DNA from: Leptolyngbyaceae cyanobacterium JSC-12
GTDB lineage: Bacteria > Cyanobacteriota > Cyanobacteriia > Leptolyngbyales > Leptolyngbyaceae
Assembly: GCA_000309945.1 (NCBI GenBank)
Contig: CM001633.1
Span: 3,622,199 to 3,686,198, forward strand
Direction of reading: 5' to 3'
DNA: 64,000 nt
Within the stretch, counting starts at the first letter, position 1; every line of letters starts with the position of its first letter. Shown here in pieces: positions 58,761 through 63,473 of the stretch. The position numbers and the translations under genes were made by a program. The notes beneath the pieces are model-generated. The model ran no database searches. It saw only the letters and a list, made by a program, of their open reading frames with translations, and was not told the origin of the DNA.

Positions 58761-59279
58761 ATGAGCGGTCTTTTCAATTTCATCAAAAGTCTATTTTCTG
58801 GAATTTTCGGGTTTATCGGCGGCTTGTTTGGTGGCAAAAAAGAGTCTACAGAAGCAGCCCCCAAACCAGTTAAAAAAAGCAACGGCTTCTTTCTTGAATT
58901 GGATGAAGCAGCAAGTGCCAGTGCGTCACAGCCTGCAACTGAGGTTGAAGCAGCCAGCACCGAGCAACCAGTGACCGTTTCTCAAGAAGCACTAGCTGAA
59001 ACGGCTCAACCAAAGGTGGCATCTGCGAAAAAATCCACTCGCAAAGAGAAATTGGCAGCATTAGCAGCAGGTGACAAGCCTGCCTCAAATTCTAATGTAG
59101 CTTCTGCAGCGGCTCCTCAACCTGCACCAGTAGTCGCAGCGGTTGCGACAGTAGAACCAGAAACTACATTTGCAACGAAGTATTTAATTCCTGCTAATAA
59201 TGGTGGGCGTCGCCGTCCCGGTGCCAATATGTCTTCTTATTTGGATATGGCACGCAAGATGAATGTGAATGTCGGCTAA
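58761..59279 (+). CDS. apcG: Probable phycobilisome linker ApcG
   Basis: A 172-residue protein in three parts. The N-terminus (MSGLFNFIKSLFSGIFGFIG, then GLFGGKK) is a hydrophobic, amphipathic segment with basic residues, suited to membrane contact. The middle is a disordered Ala/Glu/Pro-rich linker. The C-terminus, after RRRPGANM, has SSYLDMARKM, which matches FLDMAR and FLSMAS in two CpcG linkers here. ApcG in Synechocystis has a core-binding C-terminus and an N-terminus that contacts photosystem II. The layout and neighbours fit; family assignment is from memory and pattern. AGGAG precedes ATG. Confidence 0.68.
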   Translation: MSGLFNFIKSLFSGIFGFIGGLFGGKKESTEAAPKPVKKSNGFFLELDEAASASASQPATEVEAASTEQPVTVSQEALAETAQPKVASAKKSTRKEKLAALAAGDKPASNSNVASAAAPQPAPVVAAVATVEPETTFATKYLIPANNGGRRRPGANMSSYLDMARKMNVNVG

Positions 59280-59295: not shown

Positions 59296-59461
59296 CTACC
59301 TGTGGGAGCATGTCAGTTTTGCAAGTCTCTGCATTTGCCCTCATCCCCCAACCCCTTCTCCCAAGTTTGGGAGAAGGGGAGTCGAAGCTTCAAGTCCCTC
59401 TCCCAAGCTTGGGAGAGGGATTTAGGGTGAGGGCGCAAAGGTGACATGCTCCCCTACCTGT
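59296..59461. mobile_element. MITE with 8-bp target duplication
   Basis: A 150-bp element (59304-59453) bounded by perfect 12-bp inverted repeats gggagcatgtca and tgacatgctccc. Exact direct repeats ctacctgt (59296-59303 and 59454-59461) flank it and look like a target-site duplication. Inside are inverted gccctca/tgagggc and two nested hairpins, around cccaagtttggg and cccaagcttggg. There is no coding capacity, so it must have been moved by a transposase elsewhere. It lies 16 bases after the apcG stop, before that gene's terminator. Confidence 0.85.
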
Positions 59462-59944: not shown

Positions 59945-60703
59945 TTAACGACGACGGGGAACTTTGTTCAGATAGTCAATCTCGGCAGCGCGTATCCCTT
60001 GAGCATAATTGCCCTTGGGCGCGATCGAAGCTGCAACAGATGCAAACCGACGAGGATCGCCCTCTGGAAGTTGCCGTTCCTGAAACTTCTTGGTGTAAAA
60101 CTTCTCAACTGTGAAGCGCCAATCGTACTTGGTGGTGCCATAGCTATCGCGGTAAGCTTCCTCACCATAACGGGGAGTCACCAAGTTGAAAGGACGACCT
60201 TCCATACGCTTCCGCTGATAAGGCACCGTGAAGTCTCCAAACGCTTCGGTATACTCGTCACTATCCAACAGAGCATCAACAAAACCATAGAAGCCTTTGG
60301 TCGCAATCACAATTGACCAAGCAATCTCTTCATCTTGATTGTAAGAATCTCGACCCAGGAAACGCTTGAGACAAACCTGTACTAAACGATAGTTGCTGTT
60401 GACTTCGACAACCGTGCGATAGAACCGTTCAGACTTTGCCAGTTCACGAATAAAATCTCGCACAGTAATCGAGCGATTTTTTAAGCGAGTTTCCAGTGTA
60501 ATTTGGCGATTAAATTTAAGTGTTTCATGTTCGCTAAATATCTGACGATATGCCGCAAACACCAGTGCTTGAAAATCAGTATCGGAAGAGAGATCTTCTA
60601 ACCGATAGATGTAAGGCGTATCCTCATTCAAGTCAGCAGGTCCAAAGCTACGAACTCGATGATTCTGAGTAGTTGGTTTGTAAGCAAGCAACGGCAAAGC
60701 CAT
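59945..60703 (-). CDS. cpcG4: Phycobilisome rod-core linker CpcG4
   Basis: A 252-residue linker. The N-terminal Pfam PBS-linker domain (about 10-190) has [58 protein letters not shown] and [20 protein letters not shown]. The C-terminal tail has [11 protein letters not shown] at the position of the F-x-x-M motif of CpcG1/2, but with Val for Met. It ends Arg-rich (KVPRRR). It attaches phycocyanin rods to the allophycocyanin core; the divergent tail may alter core binding. Last of four tandem copies, 159 bases after cpcL. Confidence 0.92.
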
Positions 60704-60862: not shown

Positions 60863-61606
60863 CTATCCTGCTCGATTTGCTGCCATGGAAATTGCCAGCA
60901 AAATCACTAGCAACCCTGCACCGACAATAGATAACCCGGCAACCGACGCCCATTGCGATCGCTGCACAAATTTGTCCCACGTAAAAAGCTCAAACTGTTC
61001 AAACATTGGTTTGAACCGGGCAACAGGGATGTAGGAATCAGCCCTTGGTAGTTTATCGCGATAGTCTGCACCATAGCGAGGCGTGAAACTGTAAGGGCGT
61101 TCCGTTAGTCGTTTGCGTTGGTAGGGTACTGTATCATCACCAAACCAACGATGATATTCCTCACTGTCAATTAGTGCATCTACAAATTTTTCCCAACCCA
61201 ATGTGGCAATTTGCACCGACCAGGCAATTTTTTCCTCCTCGTTGTAGGGCGATCGTCCAAGCAGTCGCTTAAAACATATCTCCACCAGCCGATAGTTGTT
61301 ATTTGATGCTACAACTAGTTCATAAAATCGCTTAGATTTTGCCAATCCCTTAATGAAATCCCGCACTGAAATAACGTGACTTCTAAGTTGAGTCTCTAGC
61401 GTAATTTGACGATTAAATTGAAGAATTTCTTGCTCGTTGAATACCTGGCGATAAGCCGCCCAAATCAACTCATCCACCTCAGTACCCGACTTAGCATTCT
61501 CCAATCGATAGATGAACGCTGTATCTTCATTCAGATCTGCAAAACCAAAACTAGAAACTCGTTGGTCTTGGGTTGTTGGGACGTATTCAAGCAGCGGTAA
61601 TGCCAT
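60863..61606 (-). CDS. cpcL: Phycobilisome rod linker CpcL (membrane-anchored CpcG)
   Basis: A 247-residue linker with the same PBS-linker domain ([51 protein letters not shown]). Its C-terminus ends with a hydrophobic segment, [20 protein letters not shown] (residues about 222-241), followed by AANRAG. This tail is the mark of CpcL (CpcG2 of Synechocystis, CpcG3 of Anabaena), which ties core-less phycocyanin rods to the thylakoid and photosystem I. It is third of four copies after cpcF, the same place as in Anabaena 7120. Confidence 0.94.
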
Positions 61607-61850: not shown

Positions 61851-62594
61851 CTAGCGGACTGGAAAGCTCGATGTCGTGTTAATCGACACAGGAATTCCCG
61901 CTGGTGCGGAAGCACGAGTTGTATCGGGAATTTTGATATTTTCGGTCTTCACGCTGATAGTTTGAGCAGGAGTAATTTTCACTGATCGCGCCATATCCAG
62001 GAAATTGCGAATATCGCCCCATTTGTATCGCGACTCTTCCAACTTGTCACGCCAGTAAGCCCCATAGCGAGGGGTCACCAGGTTAAACGGACGATCCTTA
62101 AAGCGACGACGTTGGTAAGGAACAGTGTTTTCACCAAAGGCTTGCAGATACTCATCACTATCTAGCAATGTATCTACAAACTTCTCCCACCCCAATGTGG
62201 CAATCTTGATCGACCAGGCGAGTTCTTCATCCTTACTGTAAGGAGCGCGACCCAACAGGCGCTTTAAGCTCAACTCCACAATTCGATAATTGGAGTTGGT
62301 TTCGATTACCAACTTACGAAAGGTTTCGGATTTTGCCAGCCCACGGACAAAGTCACGAACGGTAATTGCCCGATTGCGCAACTGCGACTCCAGATTTGAC
62401 TGGCGACTACTTTTGAGAATGACGTGTTCACTAAAGACTTGACGATAGGCTGCCCAAATCAGTTCTTCAACATCACTGAGATCAGCACAATCTTCCAGGC
62501 GATAGATGTAAGGGGTATCTTCACCTGGAACTTCATAACCAGGAACACGCTGATTTTGAGAACTGGGACTATATGCCAGGAGGGGAATTGACAT
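61851..62594 (-). CDS. cpcG2: Phycobilisome rod-core linker CpcG2
   Basis: A 247-residue rod-core linker with the PBS-linker domain ([63 protein letters not shown]). The tail has [13 protein letters not shown] from Phe198, the F-x-x-M core-binding type motif, and IKIPDTTR, which echoes IKVPDMAR in CpcG1. The end is Pro/Ser/Thr-rich. It binds phycocyanin rods to the allophycocyanin core. 48 bases after cpcG1, so surely co-transcribed. Confidence 0.94.
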
Positions 62595-62642: not shown

Positions 62643-63473
62643 TTAAACTCTGGGAGCAACGGGAATATAACGATAGGGCAATGCTGTAGCAACGGGTTTG
62701 ACAGTTGGCTTACTATCCTCACGCGCCATATCAGGCACTTTGATCGCGCTAGAAGTAGACCGGGCAACGTGACGCTGAGTTTCTAATTGAGGGGTGAGCA
62801 TCCCGCTTGCCATCGACAAAAACTGAGAAGGAATTGCTTGCCGAATCACCTTTTTGTCAAGTGCACCACTTTGATACGTGCGGACTTGATAGTACGAGCG
62901 AGTCATTCCAAGCTGGAAGAGGCGACCTCGCCAATATTCGCCGTAGCGAGGGTTGACCAGGTTAAAGGGACGACCTTCCATGCGGCGGCGCTGATAGGGA
63001 ACGATATCATCACCAAAGTTTTGCTGATATTCGTTGCTGTCCACGATCGCGTCGATGAAGCCATGCAAACCACGAGTTGCAATCACAATAGATTGAGCAA
63101 TTTGTTCATCTCTACCGTAACTGGCGCGACCCAGGAACCGCTTAAGAATAAGATCCACCAGACGATAATTCGAGTTGGTGTCAGCCACTTCTCGGCGAAA
63201 CACATCTGATTTACCCAAGCCCCGAACAAAATCGCGCACTGAAATTGCACGATTCCGCAGTTGAGATTCTAAAAATGGCTGACGATAATTTTCTAGAATC
63301 AAGTGCTCACTAAAGATCTGGCGATAGGCTGCCCAAATTAGTTCACTGACATCCGTTTCAGATACAGCATCCCGGAGGCGATAAATCTGAGGATCATCTT
63401 CGTCAGGAACTTCAAATCCCGCAACACGCTGATTCTGAGTCTTGAGGCTAGTTTCGAGGAGAGGAATCGGCAT
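62643..63473 (-). CDS. cpcG1: Phycobilisome rod-core linker CpcG1
   Basis: A 276-residue rod-core linker, the longest of the four. PBS-linker domain: [75 protein letters not shown]. The tail has QFLSMASGMLTP from Phe218 (core-binding type motif) and later IKVPDMARED. First cpcG after cpcF, as in the known cpcBACDEFG operon. It joins rods to the core. The gap to cpcF is 109 bases, and an internal promoter is possible. Confidence 0.94.
   Translation of the reverse strand: MPIPLLETSLKTQNQRVAGFEVPDEDDPQIYRLRDAVSETDVSELIWAAYRQIFSEHLILENYRQPFLESQLRNRAISVRDFVRGLGKSDVFRREVADTNSNYRLVDLILKRFLGRASYGRDEQIAQSIVIATRGLHGFIDAIVDSNEYQQNFGDDIVPYQRRRMEGRPFNLVNPRYGEYWRGRLFQLGMTRSYYQVRTYQSGALDKKVIRQAIPSQFLSMASGMLTPQLETQRHVARSTSSAIKVPDMAREDSKPTVKPVATALPYRYIPVAPRV

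Follow-up and report, generated by a model that had tools for sequence, protein, structure and literature searches.

A gene for a protein of 172 residues adjoins a cluster of four phycobilisome linker genes on the opposite strand in a 64,000-nucleotide stretch of Leptolyngbyaceae cyanobacterium JSC-12 (contig CM001633.1, positions 3,622,199 to 3,686,198), referred to here as the window. The locus raises the question of what the small protein is, and whether its C-terminal tail is the same kind of element as the tails of the neighbouring linkers. The initial annotation likened the protein to ApcG, a tether between phycobilisome core and membrane with an amphipathic N-terminus, and linked its tail to a motif in CpcG1 and CpcG2. 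The same site was described as altered in CpcG4 and as turned into a membrane anchor in CpcL. Here these proposals are followed through the window and through 244 genomes spread evenly over the phylum.

Identity and distribution of the small protein

The 172-residue protein, whose C-terminal sequence is RRRPGANMSSYLDMARKMNVNVG, is by sequence an ApcG, the known clip between phycobilisome and membrane photosystem, because its profile matches the Sll1873, LPP2 and ApcG chains in the PDB. A profile of 44 homologues retrieved LPP2 of 8wql (E 8.4e-27), Sll1873 of 7sc7/7sc9/7scb/8to2 (E 1.5e-20), ApcG of 9wg7/9x69 (E 3.4e-19) and red-algal LPP2 of 7y4l/7y5e/7y7a (E 2.7e-5), and the sequence on its own found 8wql LPP2 (7.7e-10) and 9wg7 ApcG (1e-3). 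The similarity to ApcG, for which the initial annotation had named a profile search as a deciding check, is therefore present. Searches with the protein returned no Pfam family at E ≤ 1, including the PF00427 linker domain that marks CpcG rod-core linkers, and no NCBIfam model near its cut-off. An AGGAG ribosome-binding-like site lies just 5′ of the apcG ATG.

The architecture is common to the ApcG/Sll1873/LPP2 chains (7sc7, 8wql, 9wg7; red-algal 7y4l) and consists of an N-terminal tip, a [YF]FLELDE box, a low-complexity middle, TFAxxYL and an RRRPGxxMxxFxxMA tail (Table 1). The N-terminal helix is longer in the window protein than the Synechocystis-type MLKKLFGAKK tip. The C-terminal RRRPG...[FY]xxMA tail that distinguishes ApcG is present and the GDxxYMR...TFPK block of the Sll1911 family is absent; the profile of that family scores the window ApcG at 8.2e-4, against 2.0e-44 for a true member encoded in the same genome (G000:C1:5409105).

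Table 1. Features of apcG and of the neighbouring linker tails in the window.
Feature	Positions	Strand	Basis or remark
apcG, 172-aa ApcG (Sll1873/LPP2 family)	58761..59279	+	profile and ORF mapping
N-terminal amphipathic/hydrophobic helix, residues 3-24, putative membrane- or photosystem-facing tip	58767..58832	+	predicted helix, moment 0.425
FFLELDE, residues 43-49, box like both ApcG and Sll1911 families	58887..58907	+	consensus YFLELDE in ApcG alignment, FFLDxD in Sll1911-family alignment
TFATKYLIP, residues 136-144, ApcG-type box	59166..59192	+	F137, A138 nearly invariant, 44 homologues
RRRPG, residues 150-154	59208..59222	+	R151, P153, G154 invariant, R150 nearly, 44 homologues
YLDMARKM, residues 160-167, putative core-docking-type motif	59238..59261	+	alignment of 44, hhalign, predicted helix 157-166
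FASVAASI of CpcG4, residues 220-227, conservative variant of same site	60023..60046	-	gene 59945-60703
C-terminal hydrophobic, transmembrane-type segment of CpcL (CpcG3)	60878..60943	-	gene 60863-61606; sits where other CpcGs have the motif-bearing tail
FLDMARSV of CpcG2, residues 198-205	61980..62003	-	gene 61851-62594
FLSMASGM of CpcG1, residues 218-225	62799..62822	-	gene 62643-63473

ApcG occurs where CpcG-type phycobilisomes occur. Its profile was found in 97 of the 244 genomes, one of which (G155) is represented by no more than an N-terminal fragment where a contig ends, and all 97 belong to the 99 genomes whose CpcG match reaches 1e-40 or better. An ApcG match is lacking in the remaining two of the 99, G177 and G193. 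Two loci were left out as a false match (L073 of G140) and a chance match (L002).

The adjacency of apcG to the cpcG cluster is not a conserved neighbourhood among ApcG relatives. Among the matches listed, at least 19 genomes, picked by eye, have both matches on one contig and only in the window do they lie less than 5 kb apart, and a conserved linkage was rejected; the next-closest pair among these matches, in G233, places apcG 7.1 kb from a CpcL-type match. Just 3′ of apcG, positions 59336-59450 hold a 115-bp repeat with inverted CTCCCAAG/CTTGGGAG parts, which looks like a small dispersed repeat. Scoring of 40 among 59 candidates gave at least 17 copies, its own included, with a minimum identity of 90% across 96 bases or more.

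The tail motif in ApcG and the CpcG linkers

YLDMARKM lies at the C-terminus of ApcG exactly where it had been placed, and the linker tails compared with it, FLDMARSV, FLSMASGM, FASVAASI and WASVAGLSI, were all found in the proteins named. The opposite-strand linkers match the NCBIfam models CpcG1, CpcG2, CpcG3 and CpcG4, each above its cut-off; in the Anabaena naming given in a passage of PMC10322944, CpcG3 is CpcL. When all 44 window ORFs of at least 140 aa (six frames, first ATG; 17,272 residues) were scanned, [FY]xxMA fell within the last 80 residues of three, namely ApcG, CpcG1 and CpcG2, with two further occurrences far from the C-terminus.

Within the ApcG family the motif is strongly kept: of 73 distinct ORFs, 69 have it among their final 30 residues. 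A first count of 73 of 77, against 0.5 expected by shuffling, had included four ORFs of the Sll1911 family. The four ApcGs lacking the methionine read FIEFA, FRSLA, FAQIA and FKEIA. Across the 44 aligned ApcGs R151, P153, G154 and A164 are invariant, and F137, A138, R150 and M163 are at least 90% conserved. AlphaFold2 run on the window ApcG without an alignment predicts helices at residues 3-24, 94-102 and 157-166 and coil elsewhere (mean pLDDT 59), with an average of about 80 for residues 161-170. On its own, the tail helix shows no unusual amphipathicity, since 1,014 of 10,000 shuffles reach its moment. A weakened motif, FAQIAS/FVQIAS, is seen in one ApcG (L075 of G036) and in PDB 9wg7, and G036 additionally encodes an Sll1911-type protein (L074) with the canonical tail FRQMARDLKK.

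CpcG tails were surveyed in 60 stretches of CpcG-bearing genomes, chosen among the matches listed and excluding the CpcGs of the window. They gave 108 ORFs, of which 106 were counted after one truncated tail (L156) was left out and one identical tail collapsed. A loose motif, [FYW]xx[MLIV][AS], is present in 19/20 CpcG1, 20/20 CpcG2, 22/22 CpcG4 and 28/28 single-type CpcG tails, where shuffling predicts 4.0-4.8 per group, and in 8/16 CpcL tails (5.2 expected). The strict form [FY]xxMA is found in 17/20, 16/20, 14/22 and 23/28 of these groups respectively and in 1/16 CpcL, and [FY]xx[ML]A covers 87 of the 90 non-CpcL tails, CpcG4 included, versus 2 of 16 CpcL. One CpcG1 outlier (L131) reads FFNMT. 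The fourth motif position in the 22 sampled CpcG4 tails is M in 14, L in 6 and V in 2; FASVA of the window is therefore an ordinary member of the group, and the proposal that CpcG4 is an altered outlier was rejected.

The likeness between ApcG and CpcG was then put on a profile footing. Aligned by hhalign, the 44 ApcG sequences match 38 CpcG tails (three from the window and 35 of the 90 sampled) motif on motif at E 2.6e-4 and a probability of 42%, with G149-V171 of ApcG laid over the stretch that contains FLDMARSV of CpcG2. The score of 28.6 stands above that of every one of 200 alignments with shuffled CpcG columns, the highest of which was 19.5; E rose to 0.16 when the alignment was reversed and to 0.53 when the eight motif columns were masked. 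Because these controls score low, the likeness is non-random and located in the motif. The tail motif proposed as common to ApcG, CpcG1 and CpcG2 thus stands as a conserved feature, better than chance and predicted helical in ApcG. With its core [FY]xx[ML]A and a hydrophobic residue at +7 it is common to ApcG and the CpcG rod-core linkers, although CpcG has the PF00427 domain and ApcG does not. At about eight residues, the match is too short to tell common descent from convergence. The ApcG-CpcG tail likeness may already have been noted in 2022, and for this reason no priority is claimed for it.

The CpcL tail

CpcL resembles ApcG in being a membrane-attached phycobilisome linker, and is described in PMC10322944 as holding a rod without a core. 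Unlike ApcG, CpcL has no FxxMA and ends in a C-terminal hydrophobic segment. In the window WASVAGLSI (residues 219-227, 60926-60952, minus strand) continues into this segment. When the window CpcL and 11 of the 16 sampled CpcL tails were aligned, these 12 tails had no common motif at WASVA, the tryptophan being present in some only, and their profile could be aligned with that of the other CpcG tails over a single 11-residue stretch. An anchor derived from the motif was rejected on these grounds, and the CpcL tail looks, from these alignments, replaced rather than derived from it.

The N-terminal tip of ApcG

The amphipathic N-terminus anticipated for the window protein is borne out. Its hydrophobic moment of 0.425 over residues 3-20 was equalled by 13 of 10,000 shuffles, and the predicted helix 3-24 lies in the best-modelled part of the protein (pLDDT 86-91 for residues 1-20; single sequence). 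The 19-residue hydropathy of the window tip peaks at 1.49. Across the family the tip is variable: values of at least 1.6, with a maximum of 2.18, occur in 28 of 71 ApcG N-termini, some tips are short and basic (e.g. MLKKLFGGKK), and in a sampled ApcG of family f19 (L072) the tip is missing.

The Sll1911/Tll0889 family

Among the paralogues found in the ApcG search is a 140-aa protein of the window's own genome (G000:C1:5409102-5409524, equal to L172:1498-1920, minus strand) with an MTGFLRGFFG tip, a YYLDIDDA box, a GDVEYMR...TFPK block and the tail RRKADSSLDMFRNMAKDIRK. Its family is identified as Sll1911 because ORFs L188 and L189 read QLSQEQRSMAGLFGLFGKK, the peptides discussed for Sll1911 in PMC13339759, and L203 contains MGLFDGLFR, matching the Tll0889 peptide of the same paper; an identical start to that of L188/L189 is seen in L268 of Synechocystis salina. 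Sll1911/Tll0889 proteins have in common with ApcG a glycine-phenylalanine tip, an FFLDxD box and the RR-x8-FxxMA tail, and differ in carrying GDxxYMR...TFPK instead of TFAxxYL/RRRPG. The tail alignment of the two families (E 3.5e-13, RR-x8-F-x2-M-A in both) indicates that the Sll1911/Tll0889 tail is homologous to that of ApcG. Against the same 38 CpcG tails the family again aligns motif on motif, weakly (E 0.0096, probability 4%), and no shuffle of 200 scored as high (best 17.0 vs 20.4). In two family f19 members (L353, L354), ending DPFRQMVRDLNK and DPFKDMVRDLNN, V replaces the otherwise invariant alanine.

The Sll1911 profile matches 63 of the 244 genomes at 1e-3, of which 56 are clear and all 56 carry CpcG. 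The seven others (G060, G062, G085, G159, G172, G183 and G191), being matches to the ApcG ORF itself, to short variants, or weak, were left out by judgement. A single-sequence search again gave 56 of 244, all CpcG-bearing. G177 and G193, the CpcG-bearing genomes that lack ApcG, are among the 56. A tail count of 55 of 56 was set aside as biased, because the tail is itself part of the scan patterns and the count omits 24 of 80 loci. A locus in a genome with no CpcG match, G183:C1:712034-712213 (E 4.7e-6, three stops), is perhaps the remnant of an Sll1911-type gene.

In the PDB the Sll1911 profile found 8wql LPP2 at 3.5e-4 and no chain of its own family at E ≤ 10. Sll1873 (0.029) falls below the unrelated chains 4y6w (0.004) and 4y6c (0.015), and so only LPP2 counts as a match. 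The family model from 41 sequences (mean pLDDT 63.9) pairs residues 52-58 and 67-73 in a beta-hairpin and forms a C-terminal helix over residues 114-126 but none at the tip, and none of 35 tips reaches a hydropathy of 1.6. A membrane-inserting tip is therefore unsupported for this family, though the plug-like tail is still common to it and ApcG. PMC13339759 reports a high abundance of the Sll1911/Tll0889 ORFs in its data from complexes, places Tll0889 in another group's heterodimeric photosystem II (PSII) complex, and defers the biological significance of Sll1911 to a separate report. In the excerpts of literature on Sll1911 (P73253) that were covered, no phycobilisome function was found. Glutamine synthetase factor IF7 we take to be ssl1911, not sll1911. 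One paper gives sll1911 that label.

Short and hydrophobic ApcG-like forms

Short proteins of 104-128 aa that resemble ApcG and Sll1911 are encoded by eight ORFs (L337-L344), of which family f7 genomes supply six and f24 and f12 one each. Their E-values against the ApcG profile run from 8.3e-13 to 9.7e-7, and their tips are long and moderately hydrophobic. Five of them (L340-L344) carry RRRPN..DDYFLNMARD-like tails; the tail reads YYRKMANE in L337 and FRKLARE in L338 and L339.

A second form is found in seven genomes of family f19 (G139, G189, G201, G205, G221, G225 and G227), a family that includes small CpcG-less genomes. Here the C-terminal half of an ORF (L345, L346, L348, L358, L359, L360 and L361; that of G201 is truncated at its 5′ end) matches the ApcG profile at 6.6e-11 to 6.7e-7, and two to three segments of hydropathy 1.6 or more, with peaks of 2.07-2.55, precede the ApcG-like tail. 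On hydropathy alone, these segments are probably transmembrane. Y[KR]xMA is kept in six of the seven, and L361 of G227 has FRETA instead. The hydrophobic unit seems duplicated in L348 and L360. Of the 10 proteins scanned at the G139 locus, one is a bilin reductase whose gene lies about 5.4 kb away, amid unrelated genes.

Discussion

Our results support a model, which we consider highly probable, where ApcG of JSC-12 acts as a mostly disordered clip with its C-terminal helix on the allophycocyanin core and its N-terminal helix toward the thylakoid and PSII. The C-terminal helix, [FY]-x-x-M-A-[RK]-x-[VIM] preceded by RRRPG, would dock on the core by the same kind of helix as the core-binding tails of CpcG1, CpcG2, CpcG4 and single-type CpcG, and the hydrophobic N-terminal helix would face the thylakoid membrane and PSII. 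The computed basis comprises the identity of ApcG, the conservation of its tail, its co-occurrence with CpcG, the statistical match to the CpcG motif and the two predicted helices. Core docking of the tail is suggested by family knowledge together with the common motif; from the motif we further infer that ApcG and CpcG would use equivalent allophycocyanin pockets, and the N-terminus in JSC-12 may contact either PSII or lipid. By their entry names, the PDB structures with ApcG/LPP2 chains are of phycobilisomes and phycobilisome-PSII assemblies. Published cryo-EM work places the CpcG C-terminal extension on the core surface (PMC8448738, PMC9205905), and the second of these papers describes a weak contact in a region where map quality did not permit model building. 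LPP1/LPP2 are named among the phycobilisome-PSII linkers (PMC11169493). In PMC13322767 a fall in PSI fluorescence is cited for the apcG deletion, and regulation by phosphorylation is proposed.

The tail motif is short, which would favour chance, but the three of 44 window ORFs that have it in their last 80 residues all encode phycobilisome proteins, 69 of 73 ApcGs carry it, and 87 of 90 non-CpcL CpcG tails have it in the form [FY]xx[ML]A. Together with the hhalign controls, this leaves chance a negligible probability. Convergence of short linear motifs on different core surfaces, where the likeness would amount to a docking helix with neither a common site nor a common origin, is a more serious contender that we nevertheless hold to be unlikely. 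It draws on the roughly eight residues in common, on the hhalign probabilities of 42% for ApcG and 4% (E 0.0096) for Sll1911, on the differing upstream context (RRRPGxxM in ApcG, GDPxx in many CpcGs) and on different CpcG copies following different cylinders, as a passage of PMC8448738 describes. Against it, ApcG and each of the four non-CpcL CpcG groups in the sample conserve F/Y, M/L, A and the hydrophobic residue at +7, and for neither family did any of the 200 shuffles score as high. That a single ancestral site kept core binding in CpcG1 and CpcG2, was altered in CpcG4 and became a membrane anchor in CpcL is very improbable. WASVA of the window CpcL does fall under FLSMA in a four-sequence MAFFT alignment, but the CpcL and CpcG profiles align at the one 11-residue stretch, the 12 CpcL tails hold no such conserved motif and the CpcG4s keep theirs.

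At the other end of ApcG, the N-terminal helix could insert in the membrane as a lipid anchor instead of binding PSII, a possibility we lean against without dismissing it. The predicted helix of 22 residues is rich in F, I, L and G with one lysine, the 28 of 71 N-termini at or above 1.6 (maximum 2.18) would suit an anchor, and even more hydrophobic segments stand at the same position in seven genomes. The window peak of 1.49 nevertheless lies below the 2.07-2.55 of those seven hydrophobic forms, and other ApcGs have a short basic tip only (e.g. MLKKLFGGKK). A 2024 paper is also said, by its title, to have ApcG interacting with PSII.

The attachment of phycobilisomes to photosystems and their release in state transitions are still debated. 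A wider reading of the clip model would make the RR-x8-[FY]-x-x-M-A tail a swappable plug into the phycobilisome, with one docking helix reused across CpcG rods, the soluble membrane-side tip of ApcG, Sll1911/Tll0889, the short variants and the f19 hydrophobic forms. We hold this tentatively, at slightly less than an even call, because the Sll1911 tips are not membrane-like and FRETA replaces the motif in G227. The idea of the tail as a common plug is the part worth following, and Sll1911 and the hydrophobic form offer ways of testing it. If the reading is true, the f19 hydrophobic forms would be membrane-embedded core tethers, and Sll1911/Tll0889 would be a so far unrecognised PSII partner that docks on the phycobilisome. 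The most useful lead is the Sll1911 family, as its tail appears homologous to that of ApcG and its 56 clear cases are confined to CpcG-bearing genomes. Should rods and tethers share one short tail as their plug, single residue changes and peptide competition could put this to the test.
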